A stretch of DNA of 64,000 bases from assembly GCF_009674585.1 (NCBI RefSeq), contig NZ_WKJP01000001.1, positions 620,001 through 684,000 of the forward strand, read 5' to 3'. The notes beneath the pieces are model-generated. The model had not been told where the DNA came from and did not search any database. It saw only the letters and a list, made by a program, of their open reading frames with translations. The position numbers and the translations under genes are program-made. Within the stretch, counting starts at the first letter, position 1; every line of letters begins with the position of its first letter. The DNA is from Haloferax marinisediminis (lineage in GTDB: Archaea; Halobacteriota; Halobacteria; Halobacteriales; Haloferacaceae). Below are positions 15,471-49,040 of the stretch, piece by piece.

Positions 15471-15492
15471 ACCCCTTCGTTTCCACTGGAAC
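15471..15492 (+). promoter_or_regulatory. ORB-like element, strong, far from the origin
   Basis: ACCCCTTCGTTT then CCACTGGAAC: a near-ideal archaeal origin recognition box in the same orientation as the one beside orc1. It sits between two convergent small genes, 28 kb from the origin. Confidence 0.7.
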
Positions 15493-29431: not shown

Positions 29432-29453
29432 CTCCACCCGAAACGAAGGGGTT
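29432..29453 (-). promoter_or_regulatory. ORB-like element, strong, reverse orientation
   Basis: CTCCACCCGAAACGAAGGGG followed by TTCGGGG. It keeps the GAAACGAAGGGG core and a G-rich tail, lies between genes, 13 kb from the origin. Confidence 0.65.
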
Positions 29454-29850: not shown

Positions 29851-32715
29851 ATGCGAACAGCGGACCTGACGGGCCTGCCGACGGGAGTTCCCGAGGCCCT
29901 CCACGACGAGGGCATCGAGGAACTGTACCCACCGCAGGCCGAGGCCGTCGAGGCTGGCCTGACCGACGGCGAGAGCCTCGTCGCTGCCGTTCCGACGGCG
30001 AGCGGAAAGACACTCATCGCCGAACTCGCGATGCTGTCGAGCGTCGCACGCGGCGGGAAAGCACTCTACATCGTCCCACTCAGAGCGCTCGCCTCCGAGA
30101 AGAAAGCCGAGTTCGAACGCTGGGAAGAGTACGGCATCGACGTGGGTGCTGCCGGTAGCGATTTTAGTTCAGATAGTGGGTGGCTCTCATCGCGCGACAT
30201 CATTGTCGCCACCTCAGAGAAGGTGGACTCACTCATCCGAAACAACGCGGCGTGGATGGACCAGTTGACCTGCGTCGTCTCCGACGAAGTCCACCTCGTC
30301 AACGACCGACACCGTGGGCCGACGCTCGAAGTCACACTGGCGAAACTCCGGCGACTCAACCCGAATCTGCAAGTCGTCGCACTCTCCGCCACCGTCGGCA
30401 ACGCCGGCGAAGTCGCCGACTGGTTGGACGCCACACTCGTGCAGTCCGACTGGCGACCAATCGACCTCAAGATGGGCGTCCACTACGGCAACGCCATCTC
30501 GTTCGACGACGGGAGTCAGCGAGAGGTCCAAGTTGGCAAAGGTGACCGGCAAACATCAGCGCTCGTAGAAGATGTGTTGAACGACATTCCTGAGGCAACA
30601 GATAATGAACCCTTGATGAATCAATCTTCAATTACATTATTTGAGTGTCAGACACAACAGCATGTCAGAAATACTGTAGACTGGTTGAAAGGAAGAGAGT
30701 CTAGCAAACTGACCGAGGAAAAACGGAAGCAATTGGCGGAGATATGGGAGGACATCTCTAATAAAAGAAGTCAAAAAACCGATGGCGAAGACGAGGAAAT
30801 TGATAAAAATGACCGGTTAGCCCGTTCTCTAGCAAGAGGTATTGGGTACTTGCACGACGGGTTGAAACAAGAAGGAGAGCTAAAAAGCCCCTCACAGAGA
30901 TGGGTTGAATCGGCCATCAGTTCGGGATTGGTCAATTTTGTCTGCGTAACACCTGCGTTTCAGTCGGATATCGAATCACTAATTCAGAAATTAGATGCTG
31001 AGCGTGAAAGAAATGTATCCACAATTTCTGTTGGTGGGGCTGCCCTTGTGTTTGTTAACTCAAGACGAAACGCCGAATCGTCTGCTAAACGCTTGAAAGA
31101 AGTGACCGAAAAGTACGTTGGGGGAGAAGAAAAGAAAGAGCTCGCGAATGTTGCGGCAGAAATTCGTGATGTGTCAGACGCAGAAACAAGCGATACACTC
31201 GCTAACTGCGTGGCGAAAGGGGCTGCATTCCACCACGCTGGTCTCGCCCCAAAGCAACGAACACTCGTGGAAGACGCCTTCCGTAACCAGCTCATTAAAA
31301 CAATAAGCGCCACGCCGACGCTCGCCGCCGGCGTCAACACGCCGAGTCGTCGCGTGGTCGTCCGCGACTGGCAGCGCTACGACGGCGACTACGGCGGCAT
31401 GAAACCGCTCGACGTACTCGAAATCCACCAGATGATGGGCCGTGCCGGTCGACCGGGACTCGACCCCTACGGCGAAGCGGTCCTCCTCGCCAAAGACGCA
31501 GACGCCCGCGACGAACTGTTCGAGCGGTACATCTGGGCCGAGGCCGAGGACGTCCACTCGAAACTCGCGGCCGAACCCGCCCTTCGGACGCACCTGTTGG
31601 CGACCATCGCGTCCGGGTTCGCGCACACCCGCGAGGGCCTACTCGAATTCCTCGACCAGACGCTCTACGCGGCGCAGACCGACGACCCAAAGCGGTTAGA
31701 GCAGGTGACAGACCGCGTCCTCGACTACCTCGAAATCAACGGCTTCGTCGAGTTCGAAGGGGACAGTATCCAAGCGACGCCGGTCGGCCACACCGTCTCG
31801 CGCCTGTATCTCGACCCGATGAGCGCGGCCGAAATCATCGACGGCCTCGAGTGGGCCGCCAAACACCGGACGGAGAAACTCCGCGCACTGGAAGGCGAGA
31901 CCACGCCCACGCAAAAACGAGAGTCCGACGCCACCGGCGGATTCCAGAAGGCCAGCGAGATGGTCACCGCCAGCAGTGGGGGCGAGAGCGACGAAGACGC
32001 CGACTTCGAGTCCGACCGAACGTACCCGACACCGCTCGGACTCTACCACCTCGTCTGCCGAACCCCGGACATGTACCAGCTGTACCTGAAGTCTGGCGAC
32101 CGTGACACCTACACCGAACTCTGCTACGAGCGCGAACCCGAGTTCCTCGGTCGGGTCCCCTCGGAGTACGAGGACGTTGCCTTCGAAGACTGGCTCTCTG
32201 CGCTCAAGACGGCGCGACTCCTCGAAGACTGGGTCGGCGAAGTGGACGAAGACAGAATCACGGAACGCTACGGTGTCGGACCGGGTGACATCCGCGGCAA
32301 AGTCGAGACGGCAGAGTGGCTCTTGGGTGCGACCGAGCGCCTCGCGAGCGAACTCGACCTCGACGCCGTGTACGCGGTCCGTGAGGCCAAGAAGCGTGTC
32401 GAATACGGCGTTCGCCAAGAACTGCTCGACCTCGCTGGCGTCCGCGGCGTCGGGCGAAAACGCGCTCGGCGACTGTTCGAAGCGGGCGTCGAAACTCGTG
32501 CAGACCTCCGCGAAGCAGAGAAGTCTCGCATCCTCGCCGCACTCCGCGGCCGACGAAAGACCGCCGAGAACATCCTCGAAGCGGCGGGCCGAAAAGACCC
32601 CTCGATGGACGACATCGACGAAGCAGACGCACCGGAGGACGCCGTCCCCGACGACGCGGGATTCGAGACGGCGAAAGATCGCGCCAACCAGCAAGCAAGC
32701 CTGACTGATTTCTAA
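29851..32715 (+). CDS. hel308: Hel308 helicase with an extra RecA2-like insertion
   Basis: A Ski2-like 3' to 5' DNA helicase for stalled-fork repair, 954 residues against roughly 830 in relatives I recall. Walker A 'PTASGKT' (about 50), 'DEVHLV' (about 147), motif V 'TPTLAAGVN' (488-496), motif VI '[10 protein letters not shown]', ratchet and C-terminal HhH domain ('[16 protein letters not shown]'). Residues about 246-394 are additional and repeat, in degenerate form, the motif order of the following domain: '[12 protein letters not shown]' (327-338) against '[12 protein letters not shown]', and '[13 protein letters not shown]' against '[14 protein letters not shown]'. DNA from about 30545 to 31310 is clearly AT-richer than the rest. 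The frame is intact. It overlaps cgi121 by one base. Confidence 0.93.
30545..31310 (+). other. Low-GC mosaic segment inside hel308
   Basis: Codon use changes sharply (AAT, ATT, TTA, AGA, AAA frequent) and returns to GC-ending codons at about 31310. The block covers the extra RecA2-like part and about 90 residues of the canonical RecA2 start, so the insertion and the flanking normal domain probably came in together by homologous recombination from a low-GC relative. Confidence 0.75.
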
Positions 32716-33209
32716 TGAAAGTACTCGAAGCAGAAGCGACCGTTGCAGACCTCGACGAATTCATCGCCACCGTCGGCGACATCTCCGACGAGACGGGCGC
32801 GACGATTCAGGCGTTCGACGCCCGGTTCGTCGTCGGCCGCGACCACCTCGAACGGGCGGTCGAACTCGCCGACCGAGCAATCGCTCGCGGGAACGAAATC
32901 GCACGGGACCGCGCCGTCGAGTTCATCCTCTACGCCAGCGGCCGCCGGCAAATCAACCGCGCGTTCGAGATGGGCGTCACCGAAGGAACGCTCCCAGTCG
33001 TCATCGTCGTCGACGACGGCGACGAGAGCGCGGCTGAGACGGCACTCTTCGAACGGTTAGACCTCGAAACAGCAGAGACACTCGGCGACTACGACGAATC
33101 GCTCGTCCGCGACTTCTACGAGATCGGCGACGCCGAACTCGCCGCTGCCGACGGTGACCTCTCTGCACTCGTCAACGAGCGCGTTGCGCTCCTCACAGTA
33201 GACCGCTGA
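32715..33209 (+). CDS. cgi121: KEOPS complex subunit Cgi121
   Basis: A 164-residue protein of the Cgi121/TPRKB family. In KEOPS it binds the tRNA CCA end and helps Bud32-Kae1 make t6A37 in tRNAs. Family marks are 'ATIQAFDARFVVGRDHLERA', the 'ARDRAVEFILYASGRRQIN' helix and 'GVTEGTLPVVIVV'. Its ATG shares one base with the hel308 stop (TAATG), so translation is coupled. A functional link with Hel308 is not known to me. Confidence 0.9.
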   Translation: MKVLEAEATVADLDEFIATVGDISDETGATIQAFDARFVVGRDHLERAVELADRAIARGNEIARDRAVEFILYASGRRQINRAFEMGVTEGTLPVVIVVDDGDESAAETALFERLDLETAETLGDYDESLVRDFYEIGDAELAAADGDLSALVNERVALLTVDR

Positions 33210-33262
33210 AGCGATTATAAAGGTCTCTTTCGAGCGTAATCGACCGCTGTCGTGCGATTATT

Positions 33263-33316
33263 CCAGTTGAAACAACCCCCTTCAGATTCCAAAATCTACC
33301 CCTTCGTTTCAACTGG
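33263..33316. promoter_or_regulatory. Inverted pair of ORB-like elements
   Basis: CCAGTTGAAAC (33263-33273) and GTTTCAACTGG (33306-33316) are exact reverse complements. The right arm continues into a good ORB (CCCCTTCGTTTC at 33299-33310, then AACTGGAG). The left arm lacks the AAGGGG part and has AACCCCC instead. An AT-rich spacer lies between. The pair is flanked by cgi121 and tRNA-Gln. Confidence 0.65.
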
Positions 33317-33364
33317 AGAACAGGGGGCGACGGGTCGCCCTGTCAGGTGTAAAACACAGAGAAG

Positions 33365-33437
33365 TAGTCCCACCAGGATTCGAACCTGGGTCGTTGCCCC
33401 CAGAAGGCAACAGGATTGGCCACTACCCCATGGGACT
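33365..33437 (-). tRNA. tRNA-Gln (CUG)
   Basis: Read on the minus strand. Acceptor AGTCCCA (33437-33431) pairs with TGGGACT, discriminator A at 33365. The anticodon stem TTGCC/GGCAA encloses loop TTCTGGG, giving anticodon CUG, which reads CAG (Gln). The T arm is CCAGG-TTCGAAT-CCTGG. No intron, and no encoded CCA. Confidence 0.95.
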
Positions 33438-33569
33438 TCGCATCACTTCGTAATTCGCGGGTATTTGTAAACGTTGCGTGTCGGGGTTGCCGTGTCATGC
33501 GTTCGCATTCCGACGGATGGACGTGCATAAACCACCAACTATTTGCCCTCGTTCTATCCATTGTCGTGT

Positions 33570-34142
33570 ATGTACGTCGGACGATTCGTCGTCGTCGGTC
33601 CCGGAATCGGTGCCTATCGTGTCTCCTCTCGGTCGTTCCCGAATCGACAGGTCGTCGAGCGCGACGGAACCCTGACCGTCGGGCCGACGCCCGACGCCCC
33701 GGAGACTGACAACCCCTACATCGCCTACAACTGTGTCCGCGAAGGCGGCTCGTACGTCGTCGTCGGCAACGGGTCGCAGGTCGACCCCATCGCCGAGAAG
33801 CTCGACATGGGCTACACCCCCCGCGACGCCCTCGCGGAGATTCTCCTCGCACTCGACTACGAGAAAGACGACTACAACACGCCGCGCATCGCCGGCGTCG
33901 TCGGTGCCGACGAAGCCTACATCGGCATCGTCCGCAAAGACGCCCTCATCGTGACGGAAGTCGACGAACCGACGCTCGTCGCAACCTACGAAGAAGACGC
34001 TCCACGAGCGTTCGACCTGAGCGCCGAGAGCGCCGCTGACGCCGCCCGCGAACTCTACGACCACGAGTTCGAACACGCGGTCTGTGCCGCCGCCACGACC
34101 GTCGGCGACGACGTCGAGACGGCCTTCTACAACGGCGAGTAA
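33570..34142 (+). CDS. purO: IMP cyclohydrolase, archaeal type
   Basis: A 190-residue archaeal PurO that closes FAICAR to IMP, the last step of purine synthesis. Recognised from '[20 protein letters not shown]', '[12 protein letters not shown]', '[10 protein letters not shown]' and '[20 protein letters not shown]'. The ATG at 33570 is chosen because the TATA-like CTATTTGC (33538-33545) lies 25-32 bases upstream; the ATG at 33543 would start almost on it. No other purine gene is adjacent. Confidence 0.93.
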
Positions 34143-40895: not shown

Positions 40896-42491
40896 TCAGT
40901 TGTCGAACCGCGCCTGCACGAACGGTTGCGCGCTCTCGATGTCGCCGAGGCGCGAGTCGGTGAGTAAGACGGCCTCGGTCTCGTCGATGGGGACTGAGAG
41001 ACTGATCTCCTTCGTTCGGCCGTAGCGTCCTTTCGAGACGACGACAGCGTTGACGATACCGAGCATGTCGAGTTCCGAGATGAGGTCGGTCACGCGACGC
41101 TGTGTGAGTACGTCGGCGTCGATCTCCTCGCAGAGGCGCTTGTAGATGTTGAACACCTCGCCGGTGTTGATGTTGCGAACGCCGTTCTTCTCGAGGAGGA
41201 TGATAGCGAAGAGGACGATTTTCGACTGCGTGGGGAGCGTCCGGACGACTTCGACGACGCGGTCGAGTTCTATCTTGTCCTGTGCCTGTCGGACGTGCGC
41301 CTCTTCGACCGTGTCGGCCTGTCCGCGCTCGGCGAGTTCACCGGCAGTCCGAAGCAAGTCGAGGGCACGGCGGGCGTCACCGTGTTCCTGTGCGGCGAAC
41401 GCAGCACACAGCGGGATGACGTCGTCGGTCAACGCGCCGCCTTTGAACGCCACGTCGGCGCGGTGCTGGAGAATGTCGCGAAGTTGGTTCGCGTCGTACG
41501 GGGGGAAGACGATCTCCTCCTCACCGAGACTCGACTTGACTCGTGGGTCGAGGAAGTCAGTGAACTTCAGGTCGTTCGAGATACCCATGATGGAGATACG
41601 CGAGTTGGTGAGTTCCGAGTTCATCCGAGAGAGGTTGTAGAGCGTGTCGTCGCCCGATTTCTCGACGAGTTTGTCGATTTCGTCGAGCATGATGACGACC
41701 ACCCGTTCTTTGTAGTCGACGGCGTCGAAGAACGTCGTATAGACGCGGTCGGTGGGCCACCCTGTCATCGGGACGGTCTCCATCTCGTCGGCGTCGGTCT
41801 CCAACTCTTCTGCGCGTTCGTCTATCTCCGCGATAGAGTCGTACGGCGTGTCGACGAGCGCGTTCGGGTCTTCGGTCGCTCGCGTGCGCATCTCGTCGAG
41901 TCGGTCGAGTTCGGCTTCGATGCGTTCGAAGTTCTTCTCGATGAACTTGTTCGCGAGTTGTGCGAGCACGCGATACTGCGTGTCCGTCACCTCGCAATTG
42001 ATGTACTCGACTTCACACGGGACGTCGTACTTCTGGGAGGTGGACTCCAGTTCCTGACTCACGAACTTCGCGCTCGCGGTCTTTCCGGTCCCGGTCTTTC
42101 CGTAGATGAGAATGTTCGACGGCGTCTCGCCCCGAAGTGCAGAGACGAGAATCGTCGCCATCTGGTTGATTTGGTCGGTACGGTGGGGAAGTTCGTGTGG
42201 CGTGTACGAGGGGCGAAGCACCTCTTTGTTCTCGAAGATTGGTTCTCCCGCGAGAAGGTCGTCGAACAGACCCTTCGACCCCTCGTCGTCGTTCAAGACG
42301 ACTTTGTCGAGTCCCACGTCGGGGTCTTTGTGCTGGTCTACGTCGTCCGGAACCTCGGTATCCGGGCCGATACTCGCCTGGATATCGATATCCTCGGCGG
42401 ATACGTCGGTCGACTCCGCGTCTCCGTTACGCGCAGTGTCGTCCGCCTCTTCTCGTCGGTTACCACCTTGTGAATTTTCGTCCTCGCCCAT
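40896..42491 (-). CDS. orc1: Orc1/Cdc6 replication initiator
   Basis: A 531-residue AAA+ initiator that binds ORB elements and recruits the MCM helicase. Walker A 'YGKTGTGKTASA', Walker B 'VVVIMLDEIDKL', sensor 1 'SIMGISNDLKF', and a C-terminal winged helix ('LCEEIDADVLTQRRVTDLIS'). It is longer than the usual 400 or so residues because of an acidic N-terminal extension of about 85 residues, which is low-complexity and probably disordered. Its start lies only 7 bases from an ORB element, so autoregulation is likely. It is the gene on the left side of the origin. Confidence 0.97.
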   Translation of the reverse strand: MGEDENSQGGNRREEADDTARNGDAESTDVSAEDIDIQASIGPDTEVPDDVDQHKDPDVGLDKVVLNDDEGSKGLFDDLLAGEPIFENKEVLRPSYTPHELPHRTDQINQMATILVSALRGETPSNILIYGKTGTGKTASAKFVSQELESTSQKYDVPCEVEYINCEVTDTQYRVLAQLANKFIEKNFERIEAELDRLDEMRTRATEDPNALVDTPYDSIAEIDERAEELETDADEMETVPMTGWPTDRVYTTFFDAVDYKERVVVIMLDEIDKLVEKSGDDTLYNLSRMNSELTNSRISIMGISNDLKFTDFLDPRVKSSLGEEEIVFPPYDANQLRDILQHRADVAFKGGALTDDVIPLCAAFAAQEHGDARRALDLLRTAGELAERGQADTVEEAHVRQAQDKIELDRVVEVVRTLPTQSKIVLFAIILLEKNGVRNINTGEVFNIYKRLCEEIDADVLTQRRVTDLISELDMLGIVNAVVVSKGRYGRTKEISLSVPIDETEAVLLTDSRLGDIESAQPFVQARFDN

Positions 42492-42498
42492 CGTGTAT

Positions 42499-42520
42499 AC
42501 CCCTTCGTTTCAAGTGGAAC
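42499..42520 (+). promoter_or_regulatory. ORB element beside orc1
   Basis: ACCCCTTCGTTT then CAAGTGGAAC, 7 bases before the orc1 start codon. A strong match to the archaeal origin recognition box. Confidence 0.85.
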
Positions 42521-43302: not shown

Positions 43303-43324
43303 ACCCCTTCGTTTCGGGTGGAGT
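43303..43324 (+). promoter_or_regulatory. Strong ORB, left of the unwinding region
   Basis: ACCCCTTCGTTTC then GGGTGGAGT. It faces the AT-rich block and is paired with the inverted element at 43498. Confidence 0.85.
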
Positions 43325-43497: not shown

Positions 43498-43525
43498 GTT
43501 CCACCTGAAACGAAGGGGTGGGGGT
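43498..43525 (-). promoter_or_regulatory. Strong ORB with G-rich tail, reverse orientation
   Basis: GTTCCACCTGAAACGAAGGG, then GTGGGGGT. The G-rich tail is a feature reported for haloarchaeal ORBs. It is mirrored a few bases on by TTGACCCCC. Confidence 0.87.
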
Positions 43526-46484: not shown

Positions 46485-49040
46485 ATGCCGGCCTCTGAGG
46501 ACGTCGCGTACGTCGACCACCCGCTACTCGTCCCGTCGTTCATCGAGCGACGGCTCTACCAGATTCGACTCGCAGGCGCCGCGCGCGACGACCACACGCT
46601 CGTCTGTCTGCCGACCGGTCTCGGGAAGACGACGGTCAGTCTGCTCGTCACGGCCGAGCGACTGTACGAAGTCGGCGGCAAGTCGCTGTTCCTCGCCCCG
46701 ACGAAACCACTCGTCCAACAGCACGCCGACTTCTACCGTGAGGCCCTCACCATTCCCGACGACGAAATCGTGGTCTTCACCGGTGACGTTCGACCCGACG
46801 ACCGGGCCGAACTCTGGGAAGAAGCCCAGATAATCATCGCGACACCGCAGGTCATCGAGAACGACCTCATCGGGAACCGAATCTCCCTCCGTGACGTGAC
46901 GCACCTCACGTTCGACGAGTGTCACCGCGCGAGTGGTGACTACGCCTACGTCTACATCGCAGAGCGATACCACGCCGACGCGGCAGACCCACTCGTCACC
47001 GGGATGAGTGCCTCGCCCGGCGGCGACGAGGAAGCCATCCTCGAAGTCTGTGAGAACCTCGGTATCGCCGACGTGGAGGTGATGACCGAAGGCGATGCCG
47101 ACGTCGACGAGTACACGCACGACACGGACGTGGAGTGGAACCGTATCCAACTCCCCGACGAGATTCTGGAGATACGCGACGCGCTCAACGAAGTCATCAC
47201 CGACCGACTGGAGAAACTCAAGCAGTTGGGCGTCGCGCGCTCGACCAAACCCGACGTCTCGCAAAAAGACCTCAACAGGATGCGAGCGGAACTCCAGCGA
47301 CTGATGAACGCGGACAAGTCGGAGGGGTACAAGGGGATGTCCACGCACGCGGAGGTGATGAAACTCCGACGAGCGGTCGAACTCGTCGAGACGCAGTCGG
47401 TCGAATCCGTCCGACGCTACTTCGAACGCCAGCGGAACGCGGCCCGTTCGTCGGGCGCGTCGAAGGCGAGTCAGCGACTCGTCGCCGAACCGAAGGTCCG
47501 CGAAGCGATGCGGAAAGCAGAGTCGTTCGACGGTCTCCACCCGAAGTTTCGGAAGACGCGAATCCTCCTCGCCGAGACACTCGGCATCCACGACGGAGAA
47601 CGCGTCATCGTGTTCACCGAGTCCCGCGACACTGCCGAGGCGTTGACGGAGTTCCTCTCGGAGAACTTCTCCGTCCAGCGATTCGTCGGACAGGGAGACC
47701 GCGAGGGGTCCGACGGGATGTCTCAGAAAGAACAGCAGGAGACGCTCGACAAATTCCGCAGCGGGGAGTTCGAAGTCCTCGTCTCCACGTCTGTCGCCGA
47801 AGAGGGACTGGACGTGCCGGAAGTCGACCTCGTGCTCTTTTTCGAACCTGTGCCGACGGCAATTCGCTCTATCCAGCGCAAAGGCCGAACTGGTCGCCAA
47901 GCCGACGGGCGCGTGGTCGTCCTCCTCGCCGAGGACACGCGTGACGAGGCGTACTTCTGGATTTCACGCCGCCGCGAAAAGACGATGCAGAACGAACTTC
48001 GTGAACTGAAGGGTGCCGCGCCTGAAATCGAGGCCGAACTCGACCACTCTCAACGTGACCTCGCAGAATTCTCGGGTGGCGAGTCCACCGGAAACGCAGG
48101 GGTCGATGGCGCGGCGACCGCGGAAACTGGGCAAAGCGCTGCGTCGCCGTCCGCTGATGCCGCCGACGCCGCCGACGGTACCGAATCAGTCGCCACGGCG
48201 AGCGCAACGAACGGGCAGTCCGGCCTCGCAGACTTCGGACCCTCTGACGAGCAACTGGCACGGGCCGAACCCGACGACGAGGCCGAGGGAGAATCCGAAG
48301 GTGAGACCGAATCTGCCGACGGGAGTGACGACGCCGAAAACAGCGACGACGACACCAACGCAGGCACGATTGCGAAAGCCGGGTCCGACGACGGCGTCGA
48401 AATCGTCGTCGACCAGCGCGAACTCGACTCCCACATCGCGCGGACGCTCTCGAAACGTGACGACCTCACGACTCGACTCGAAACGCTGGCCGTCGGCGAC
48501 TACATCCTCTCGGACCGCGTCGCAGTCGAACGAAAGAGCGTCTCTGACTTCCTCGACACGTTGACCGGTGGTGACCGCTCGTTGTTCGAGCAAATCGCCG
48601 ACCTGACACGACACTACGCCCGTCCGTTACTCATCGTCGAGGGAAGAGGCCTCTACGAAGAGCGGAACATCCACCCCGGCGCGATTCGCGGCGCACTCTC
48701 GTCTGTCGCCGTGGACTTCGGCGTGAGCGTCCTCTTCACCGAGGACGAAGACGACACCGCCGAGATGCTCGCCACCATCGCGACACGCGAGCAGACAGAC
48801 CGCGAACGAAGCGTGAGCGTCCACGGCGGAAAGAGCGCGAAGACGCTCGACGAGCAACAGGAGTACGTCGTCTCCGCCATCGCCGACATCGGTCCCGTGA
48901 CTGCGCGGACCTTACTCGAAGCGTTCGGCAGCGTCGAAGCGGTGATGACGGCGAACGAAGACGACCTGCAGGACGTCCGTGGCGTCGGGAAGGTCACCGC
49001 CGAACGGATTCGTGAAGTCGTCGGGTCTGAGTACCGCTGA
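46485..49040 (+). CDS. hef: Hef helicase-nuclease
   Basis: An 851-residue archaeal Hef (FANCM/XPF-related) for stalled forks. The helicase has Walker A 'LPTGLGKTT' (about residue 44), 'TFDECHRASG' (motif II), and motif VI 'QRKGRTGRQADG'. A low-complexity acidic linker follows (about residues 520-635), then the XPF-type nuclease with 'IVVDQRELDS' and 'VAVERKSVSDFLD' (ERKxxxD) and tandem HhH motifs ('LLEAFGSVEAVM', 'LQDVRGVGKVTAERI'). The ATG at 46485 follows the TATA-like CCTTATC by 25-31 bases. Full length and intact. Confidence 0.96.
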   Translation: MPASEDVAYVDHPLLVPSFIERRLYQIRLAGAARDDHTLVCLPTGLGKTTVSLLVTAERLYEVGGKSLFLAPTKPLVQQHADFYREALTIPDDEIVVFTGDVRPDDRAELWEEAQIIIATPQVIENDLIGNRISLRDVTHLTFDECHRASGDYAYVYIAERYHADAADPLVTGMSASPGGDEEAILEVCENLGIADVEVMTEGDADVDEYTHDTDVEWNRIQLPDEILEIRDALNEVITDRLEKLKQLGVARSTKPDVSQKDLNRMRAELQRLMNADKSEGYKGMSTHAEVMKLRRAVELVETQSVESVRRYFERQRNAARSSGASKASQRLVAEPKVREAMRKAESFDGLHPKFRKTRILLAETLGIHDGERVIVFTESRDTAEALTEFLSENFSVQRFVGQGDREGSDGMSQKEQQETLDKFRSGEFEVLVSTSVAEEGLDVPEVDLVLFFEPVPTAIRSIQRKGRTGRQADGRVVVLLAEDTRDEAYFWISRRREKTMQNELRELKGAAPEIEAELDHSQRDLAEFSGGESTGNAGVDGAATAETGQSAASPSADAADAADGTESVATASATNGQSGLADFGPSDEQLARAEPDDEAEGESEGETESADGSDDAENSDDDTNAGTIAKAGSDDGVEIVVDQRELDSHIARTLSKRDDLTTRLETLAVGDYILSDRVAVERKSVSDFLDTLTGGDRSLFEQIADLTRHYARPLLIVEGRGLYEERNIHPGAIRGALSSVAVDFGVSVLFTEDEDDTAEMLATIATREQTDRERSVSVHGGKSAKTLDEQQEYVVSAIADIGPVTARTLLEAFGSVEAVMTANEDDLQDVRGVGKVTAERIREVVGSEYR

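Follow-up and report, generated by a model that had tools for sequence, protein, structure and literature searches.

The cgi121/tRNA-Gln gap and its dyad

The dyad considered here lies in the gap between cgi121, which encodes a subunit of KEOPS, and the convergent gene of tRNA-Gln, within a window of 64,000 nucleotides (the whole stretch of DNA that was analysed). cgi121 is preceded by a helicase gene that we take to be Hel308. Farther along the window, at about 42.5-43.5 kb, oriC1 adjoins the gene of its initiator, orc1, the product of which has 2qby_A as its best solved relative (E 1.7e-107).

Table 1. Genes, arms of the dyad and ORBs in the window, with the six recurrent ORB positions (A to F) of the genus Haloferax; matches are counted over the 16 fixed positions of the pattern, and distances are from orc1
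Feature	Position	Strand	Evidence or match	Distance and occurrence
Site A, intergenic, ~370 bp upstream of uvrB	15472..15490	-	perfect	about -26 to -29 kb; 11/15 Haloferax at <=1 mismatch
Site B, flanked by two ORFs of the minus strand	29433..29451	+	perfect	-13 to -16 kb; 12/15 Haloferax at <=1 mismatch
Helicase gene (presumably Hel308-type), upstream of cgi121	29851..32715	+	Pfam PF21280, DEAD, Helicase_C
cgi121 (KEOPS subunit), its 3' end followed by the ORB	32715..33209	+	Pfam PF08617 CGI-121, E 2.7e-10
Left arm with the ORB half-site TCCANNNGAAAC, converging on the right arm; left copy TCCAGTTGAAAC of the repeat	33262..33273	+	exact 12-bp inverted repeat
G-run in place of the left arm's G-string (CCCCC on plus)	33276..33280	-
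Right arm TCCAGTTGAAACGAAGGGG = site C	33299..33317	-	perfect, 16/16 of TCCANNNGAAACGAAGGGG	-9 to -13 kb; 12 Haloferax at <=1 mismatch
Right copy GTTTCAACTGGA of the repeat	33306..33317		exact 12-bp inverted repeat
tRNA-Gln (CTG), convergent with cgi121	33364..33437	-	ARAGORN, Rfam RF00005
Site D		-	not found in the window genome at <=1 mismatch	-3 kb; 5 Haloferax
orc1 (oriC1 initiator gene)	40896..42491	-	Pfam Cdc6_lid, Cdc6_C, AAA
oriC1 ORB, 9 bp before the start codon of orc1	42500..42518	-	perfect
oriC1 left ORB of the divergent pair	43304..43322	-	perfect
oriC1 right ORB of the divergent pair	43500..43518	+	perfect
Site E, inside a helicase/ERCC4-nuclease gene	48084..48102	+	15/16; Pfam of the gene DEAD, ERCC4	+6 kb; 10/15 Haloferax
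Site F		+	outside the window	+38 to +42 kb; 9 Haloferax

The two arms of the dyad are separated by 32 nt. The preliminary description had located them correctly and reported an exact match of 11 bp, which in fact extends to 12 bp. The right arm is a haloarchaeal ORB of the oriC1 type, with both the consensus TCCANNNGAAACG and the terminal G-string, and at the 16 fixed positions it is identical to the three oriC1 ORBs of the same genome, those at 42500, 43304 and 43500. It resembles the oriC1 ORBs in these fixed positions, in the G-string and in the variability of the NNN, and matches to the shared pattern lie mostly around oriC1. It differs from them in its distance from orc1 (8-13 kb in Haloferax), in having a half-site as partner, in its convergent arrangement and in the lack of an unwinding element. 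The left arm is a half-site only and not a full ORB, as TCCAGTTGAAAC is followed by AACCCCC and there is no G-string. By itself, the left arm of the window genome scores 10/16 on the full pattern, a value within the range of chance; it is supported by the exactness of the repeat and by conservation, and not by this score. Between the dyad and the 3' end of the tRNA there is in addition a short G+C-rich hairpin (33320-33345), the sequence of which varies within the genus.

A chance origin of the right-arm ORB was considered and rejected, as neither the Markov null nor the reversed control reaches a comparable score. The pattern CCAGTTGAAAC, with at most one mismatch, has 6 matches in the 64-kb window against 0.61 expected. 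On the 16-position pattern the window contains nine sites of at least 14 (six perfect, one with 15 and two with 14), whereas a first-order Markov null of 30 replicates gives 0.37 sites of at least 13 per 64 kb and none of at least 14; the reversed control, with at most one mismatch, is matched once in 48 genomes. At up to two mismatches the background becomes clear (CCAGTKGAAACNNNGGGG has 20 matches in the whole window genome against 8 for the reversed control), and for this reason our counts are restricted to 0-1 mismatch or to at least 14/16.

The dyad is conserved in Haloferax and its ORB recurs after cgi121

The preliminary description had proposed to compare the locus in related genomes. 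Far from being absent in all close relatives, the dyad is kept in 15 of 15 Haloferax genomes (the window genome included). The right arm retains 14-16 of the 16 positions in all 15, and the left half-site retains 9/9 fixed positions in 13 of them and 8/9 in the other two, with the full pattern of the left arm reaching only 10-12 of 16. The spacing of the arms is constant in 15/15, and the stretch that precedes the dyad varies and contains gaps. At the place of the left arm's G-string, CCCC is invariant in all 15 genomes, and therefore it is a feature of the genus and not the result of decay: the preliminary description was right that the G-run of the left arm is missing and wrong to regard the arm as decayed. 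The arms are exactly identical to each other in the window genome only; in the other 14 they differ, mostly at positions 5-7, which are the NNN of the ORB.

As a separate observation, in four Haloferax genomes (G003, G007, G010 and G012) a segment of about 20 bp from the 3' end of tRNA-Gln is duplicated 63 bp away (65 bp in G003), with similar filler sequence. The duplication has the look of a relic left by an earlier integration event; it is lacking in the window genome.

For the family as a whole we surveyed the 700 bp after cgi121 in the 110 of 117 genomes with a Cgi121 match, 11 of which are Haloferax (G017, G044, G054, G063, G066, G080 and G083 were left out). The end of the match, close to the stop codon, serves as the zero point for offsets; in G050 only part of the gene is matched. 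In 58 of the 110 genomes, representing 18 of 26 genera, these 700 bp include an ORB of at least 14/16 on the opposite strand to cgi121, and in 26 genomes it is perfect. In 57 of the 58 it starts 10-137 bp past the end of the Cgi121 match. Among the controls, 12 is the highest score of the reversed pattern over 220 strands, and the cgi121 strand reaches 14 in a single genome of the 110. The remaining 8 of the 26 genera have no ORB of at least 14 after cgi121. In G091 other sequence intervenes after cgi121, and the ORB, a perfect one, comes 2.2 kb farther on. Second ORB sites, at 39-47 bp from core to core, form tandems in two genomes of genus g26 and two of g8, and in several g14 genomes the second site is divergent and weaker (11-13 of 16). 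Named database records agree for the genus, with an ORB directly after cgi121 in 11/11 Haloferax, these records being probably in part duplicates of the surveyed genomes and hence not independent. Among seven other named genera such an ORB was found in one (Halogranum amylolyticum); in Haladaptatus a perfect ORB occurs 451 bp past cgi121 on the other strand, and the remaining five have none there. The earlier suggestion of a secondary Orc1 site fits these results well: a perfect ORB that is kept in 15/15 Haloferax and recurs in 18/26 genera of the family is a good candidate for such a site.

The ORB does not depend on the neighbouring tRNA gene. tRNA-Gln lies in the examined stretch in 39 of the 58 ORB-bearing genomes and was not found there in the other 19, which means that it is not required, and we rejected a tRNA-linked element on this ground. 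A dependence on the distance from orc1 is suggestive only. The ORB is present in 48 of the 78 genomes in which cgi121 lies within 60 kb of orc1 and in 3 of the 18 in which it lies farther (Fisher p 0.0012, with kinship ignored and some distances being circular ones that assume closed chromosomes). Thirty of these 78 genomes thus have no ORB of at least 14; in genus g25 it is missing in 11/11 genomes, six of which have cgi121 near orc1. Of the 14 genomes in which the two genes stand on separate contigs or no orc1 was detected, 7 have the ORB.

ORBs cluster around oriC1 in Haloferax

The 15 Haloferax genomes contain 126 matches with at most one mismatch, 111 of them on the contig that carries orc1, and all 111 lie within 50 kb of that gene. 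Forty-nine are within 2.5 kb of orc1 and 62 are dispersed. Of the dispersed matches, 59 fall at only six positions, from about -29 to +42 kb relative to orc1, and the orientation at each position is uniform (A to F in Table 1; the overlapping distance ranges of sites B and C are parted by a strand filter). The other three matches lie at +3.9, +4.1 and -4.1 kb. The right arm of the dyad is site C. The uvrB gene near site A was named from Pfam, and the gene around site E is presumably of the Hef type. The remaining 15 matches are on other contigs, and several of them look, by sequence and neighbours, like sites A, B or C severed by contig ends. As in loci of the initiator-titration type (oriC2D, datA, DnaA-box clusters), the motif occurs near but outside the origin and is fixed in place; the dense cluster of sites typical of such loci is absent here, each position having one or two ORBs.

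Two further observations concern individual sequences. TGCAGGCGAAACGAAGGGG, a one-mismatch site that accounts for five of the 15 matches on other contigs, occurs on one strand or the other off the orc1 contig in five Haloferax genomes (G001:C1, G004:C19, G008:C10, G010:C17 and G011:C54). A perfect ORB stands 9 bp before the start of orc1 in G006, G010 and G012 as it does in the window genome, where this ORB (42500-42518) is possibly a site of autoregulation of orc1.

Other haloarchaea keep such single ORBs at other positions near the origin. Our class-wide sample comprised 44 genomes, the window genome included, 17 of them from its family. Perfect ORBs are present in 41 and a perfect divergent pair in 27, so that distances from the pair were counted without the other 14. 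In the 27 genomes, 33 perfect ORBs are separated from the pair by more than 2.5 kb: 23 are up to 60 kb away, 5 at 60-200 kb, 1 still farther (measured linearly, on a possibly circular contig) and 4 on contigs other than that of the pair. The reversed control pattern has no match in any of the 44 genomes. The perfect sites of the sample include one convergent pair within 450 bp, as against the divergent pair in 27 genomes.

Four genomes of another haloarchaeal family, f4 (G126, G138, G143 and G137), share TCCATGCGAAACGAAGGGG and TCCAGTTGAAACGAAGGGG. In the two of them in which the contigs permit both measurements, the respective distances of these sites to the oriC1 pair are about 111-112 kb and 32-37 kb, and the sites perhaps form a dispersed set of that family's own.

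A proposed titration of Orc1 and its alternatives

We tentatively propose, with a little less than even confidence, that the right arm is a selected Orc1-binding ORB outside the origin, accompanied in Haloferax by a genus-specific convergent half-site, and that it is a member of a set that titrates the initiator. Orc1 is the probable ligand of the right arm, since this arm is identical to the oriC1 ORBs at the fixed positions; in addition, the type of a haloarchaeal ORB is reported to go with the family of the adjacent Orc/Cdc6 (PMC3528665), which supports Orc1 as the binder. The same paper reports that certain cdc6 genes have ORBs on either side. The effect of the dispersed sites may, by analogy, be titration: Orc1, encoded beside oriC1, would bind the dispersed ORBs as well as oriC1; because they are close to oriC1, these ORBs would be duplicated soon after firing, and the number of competing sites would rise right then; more ORBs competing at once would leave less free Orc1, and re-initiation at oriC1 would be damped.

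The closest parallel is oriC2D of Haloarcula hispanica, a block of 722 bp with 11 ORBs that immediately follows cdc6E beside oriC2 and represses this origin, likely via titration of Cdc6E (PMC3936714; also reviewed in PMC4010727). Both cases appear to involve extra ORBs that lie near but outside an origin and are proposed to hold the initiator. However, oriC2D is a dense block at oriC2, whereas the Haloferax sites are single, extend over about 70 kb around oriC1 and are known from the motif. Sites for the initiator outside the origin have also been tied to the restraint of initiation in bacteria. In B. subtilis, joint removal of six DnaA-box clusters outside the origin leads to early initiation (PMC5295017), a parallel that is weakened by the statement, elsewhere in the same review, that these clusters have no significant role. 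datA of E. coli, which lies just downstream of a tRNA operon (PMC5295017, PMC10950094), promotes the hydrolysis of DnaA-ATP and is not merely a sink (PMC5295017). The bacterial loci differ from the Haloferax sites in that their initiator is non-homologous, that each cluster has several boxes and that datA acts with IHF in DnaA-ATP hydrolysis. oriC2D, the B. subtilis clusters and datA are thus to be regarded as analogies.

Several observations count against titration. The sites are single or paired ORBs and form no dense array, so that each could hold little Orc1, and their positions and orientations are more fixed than pure titration needs. Moreover, a strong ORB persists after cgi121 in G020, G037 and G058, in which orc1 is 65, 178 and 206 kb away.

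One alternative is an architectural role, in which the dispersed Orc1 sites would anchor the origin domain (in looping, origin pairing or segregation) without serving as a sink, in the manner of the parS sites near bacterial origins. In Haloferax the order, spacing and orientation of the six sites are conserved over about 70 kb, paired sites recur at 39-47 bp from core to core, and distant sites recur in related genomes of another family. However, the positions differ between genera, and of the 28 sites that the class sample has within 200 kb, only 19 are oriented away from oriC1, which is not convincing. We regard this alternative as unlikely, though it deserves to be kept in mind.

Orc1 bound past the end of cgi121 might instead have a local effect, either terminating or insulating the transcription of hel308-cgi121 or controlling these genes. 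The narrow placement of the ORB in the family, 10-137 bp past the end of the Cgi121 match and on the opposite strand in 57 of 58 genomes, is in keeping with such a role, as is the presence of a same-strand site of at least 14 in only one genome of the 110. However, the other sites of the window stand by unrelated genes (upstream of uvrB, between two ORFs and inside the helicase/nuclease gene), the ORB of G091 is perfect although 2.2 kb of other sequence part it from cgi121, and 8 of the 26 genera lack an ORB of at least 14 at this place. A local role in transcription is also improbable in our opinion, almost as likely as the architectural one.

The inverted repeat can fold on either strand, and an RNA hairpin or a transcription terminator had to be considered. 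The folding z-scores are only -1.92 and -1.30, and the folded stretches include the second hairpin; a search of Rfam with positions 33100-33600, up to an E-value of 1, returned the tRNA only. In a hairpin model of the 15 Haloferax sequences (13 distinct rows), 3 of the 12 pairs break freely, all at NNN positions, and no compensatory changes between the arms were found above background, the covariation score being reached in 418 of 500 shuffles. Breaks at the NNN without covariation mean that the arms vary like two separate binding sites and not like paired RNA. Since the arms do not covary, the folding is weak and Rfam has no match besides the tRNA, we rejected this explanation, the probability of which we consider very small.

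A relic or secondary replication origin is hardly credible, even though two inverted ORB-type arms and a mild AT enrichment are present at the dyad. The preliminary description had seen in it a small copy of the origin layout, with an AT-rich spacer, and possibly a relic origin. The layout is, on the contrary, the reverse of that of oriC1: the arms of the dyad converge, with the G-string side inward, whereas the oriC1 pair, 43304 (-) and 43500 (+), diverges with the G-strings outward. In 15/15 Haloferax the ORBs of that pair are 195-197 bp apart from start to start, as compared with the 32-nt spacer of the dyad. The spacer has 53% AT and the window 38%; as the surrounding intergenic stretch as a whole already has 51%, the spacer is no distinct AT-rich element, and nothing like a separate unwinding element is found between the arms. 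The left arm has no G-string, and the minimal oriC1 of H. hispanica is reported to lose function if either of its G-strings is mutated (PMC3936714). The conservation of the dyad also speaks against the status of a relic. On orientation, spacing and AT content we rejected an origin copy, and the example cautions that a lone ORB pair does not evidence an origin.

The least probable of all the alternatives is the barrier next to the tRNA gene that had been suggested earlier, here understood as a replication fork barrier protecting tRNA-Gln: this gene accompanies the ORB in 39 of 58 genomes and adjoins it in Haloferax, but it was not found in the examined stretch of the other 19, and the remaining dispersed ORBs of the window are away from tRNA genes, as the window has but one.

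Returning to titration by the dispersed ORBs, neither the ORB nor the concept that ORBs titrate the initiator is new; what appears to be new is the conserved dispersed set around oriC1. Such a set is not described in the accessible portions of PMC3528665, PMC3936714, PMC4595724, PMC4441112 and PMC4010727. It could have been overlooked because the ORB surveys of PMC3528665 and PMC4595724 were, as their available methods indicate, confined to the gaps beside cdc6 genes. A literature search for dispersed ORBs or for ChIP of Orc1 in haloarchaea found none, with most subscription papers outside its scope, so that the absence of earlier reports is unproven.

On a broader view, we see about an even chance that haloarchaea have a conserved constellation of single Orc1 boxes, with fixed places and orientations over tens of kilobases to either side of oriC1, their ancestral origin, and that it regulates initiation at oriC1 or organises the origin domain. 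Its counterparts in bacteria would be the clusters of DnaA boxes close to the origin, whose initiator is non-homologous, or the parS sites. How the firing of oriC1 is restrained in archaea is poorly known, and the sole tested cis-acting negative control that we found in the accessible literature is that of oriC2 of Haloarcula (PMC3936714). The sites listed here, few and individually named, are conserved candidates for Orc1 binding in a genus that is amenable to genetics, which makes the question open to direct experiment, and the dispersed ORBs may help to control the timing of the start of replication.
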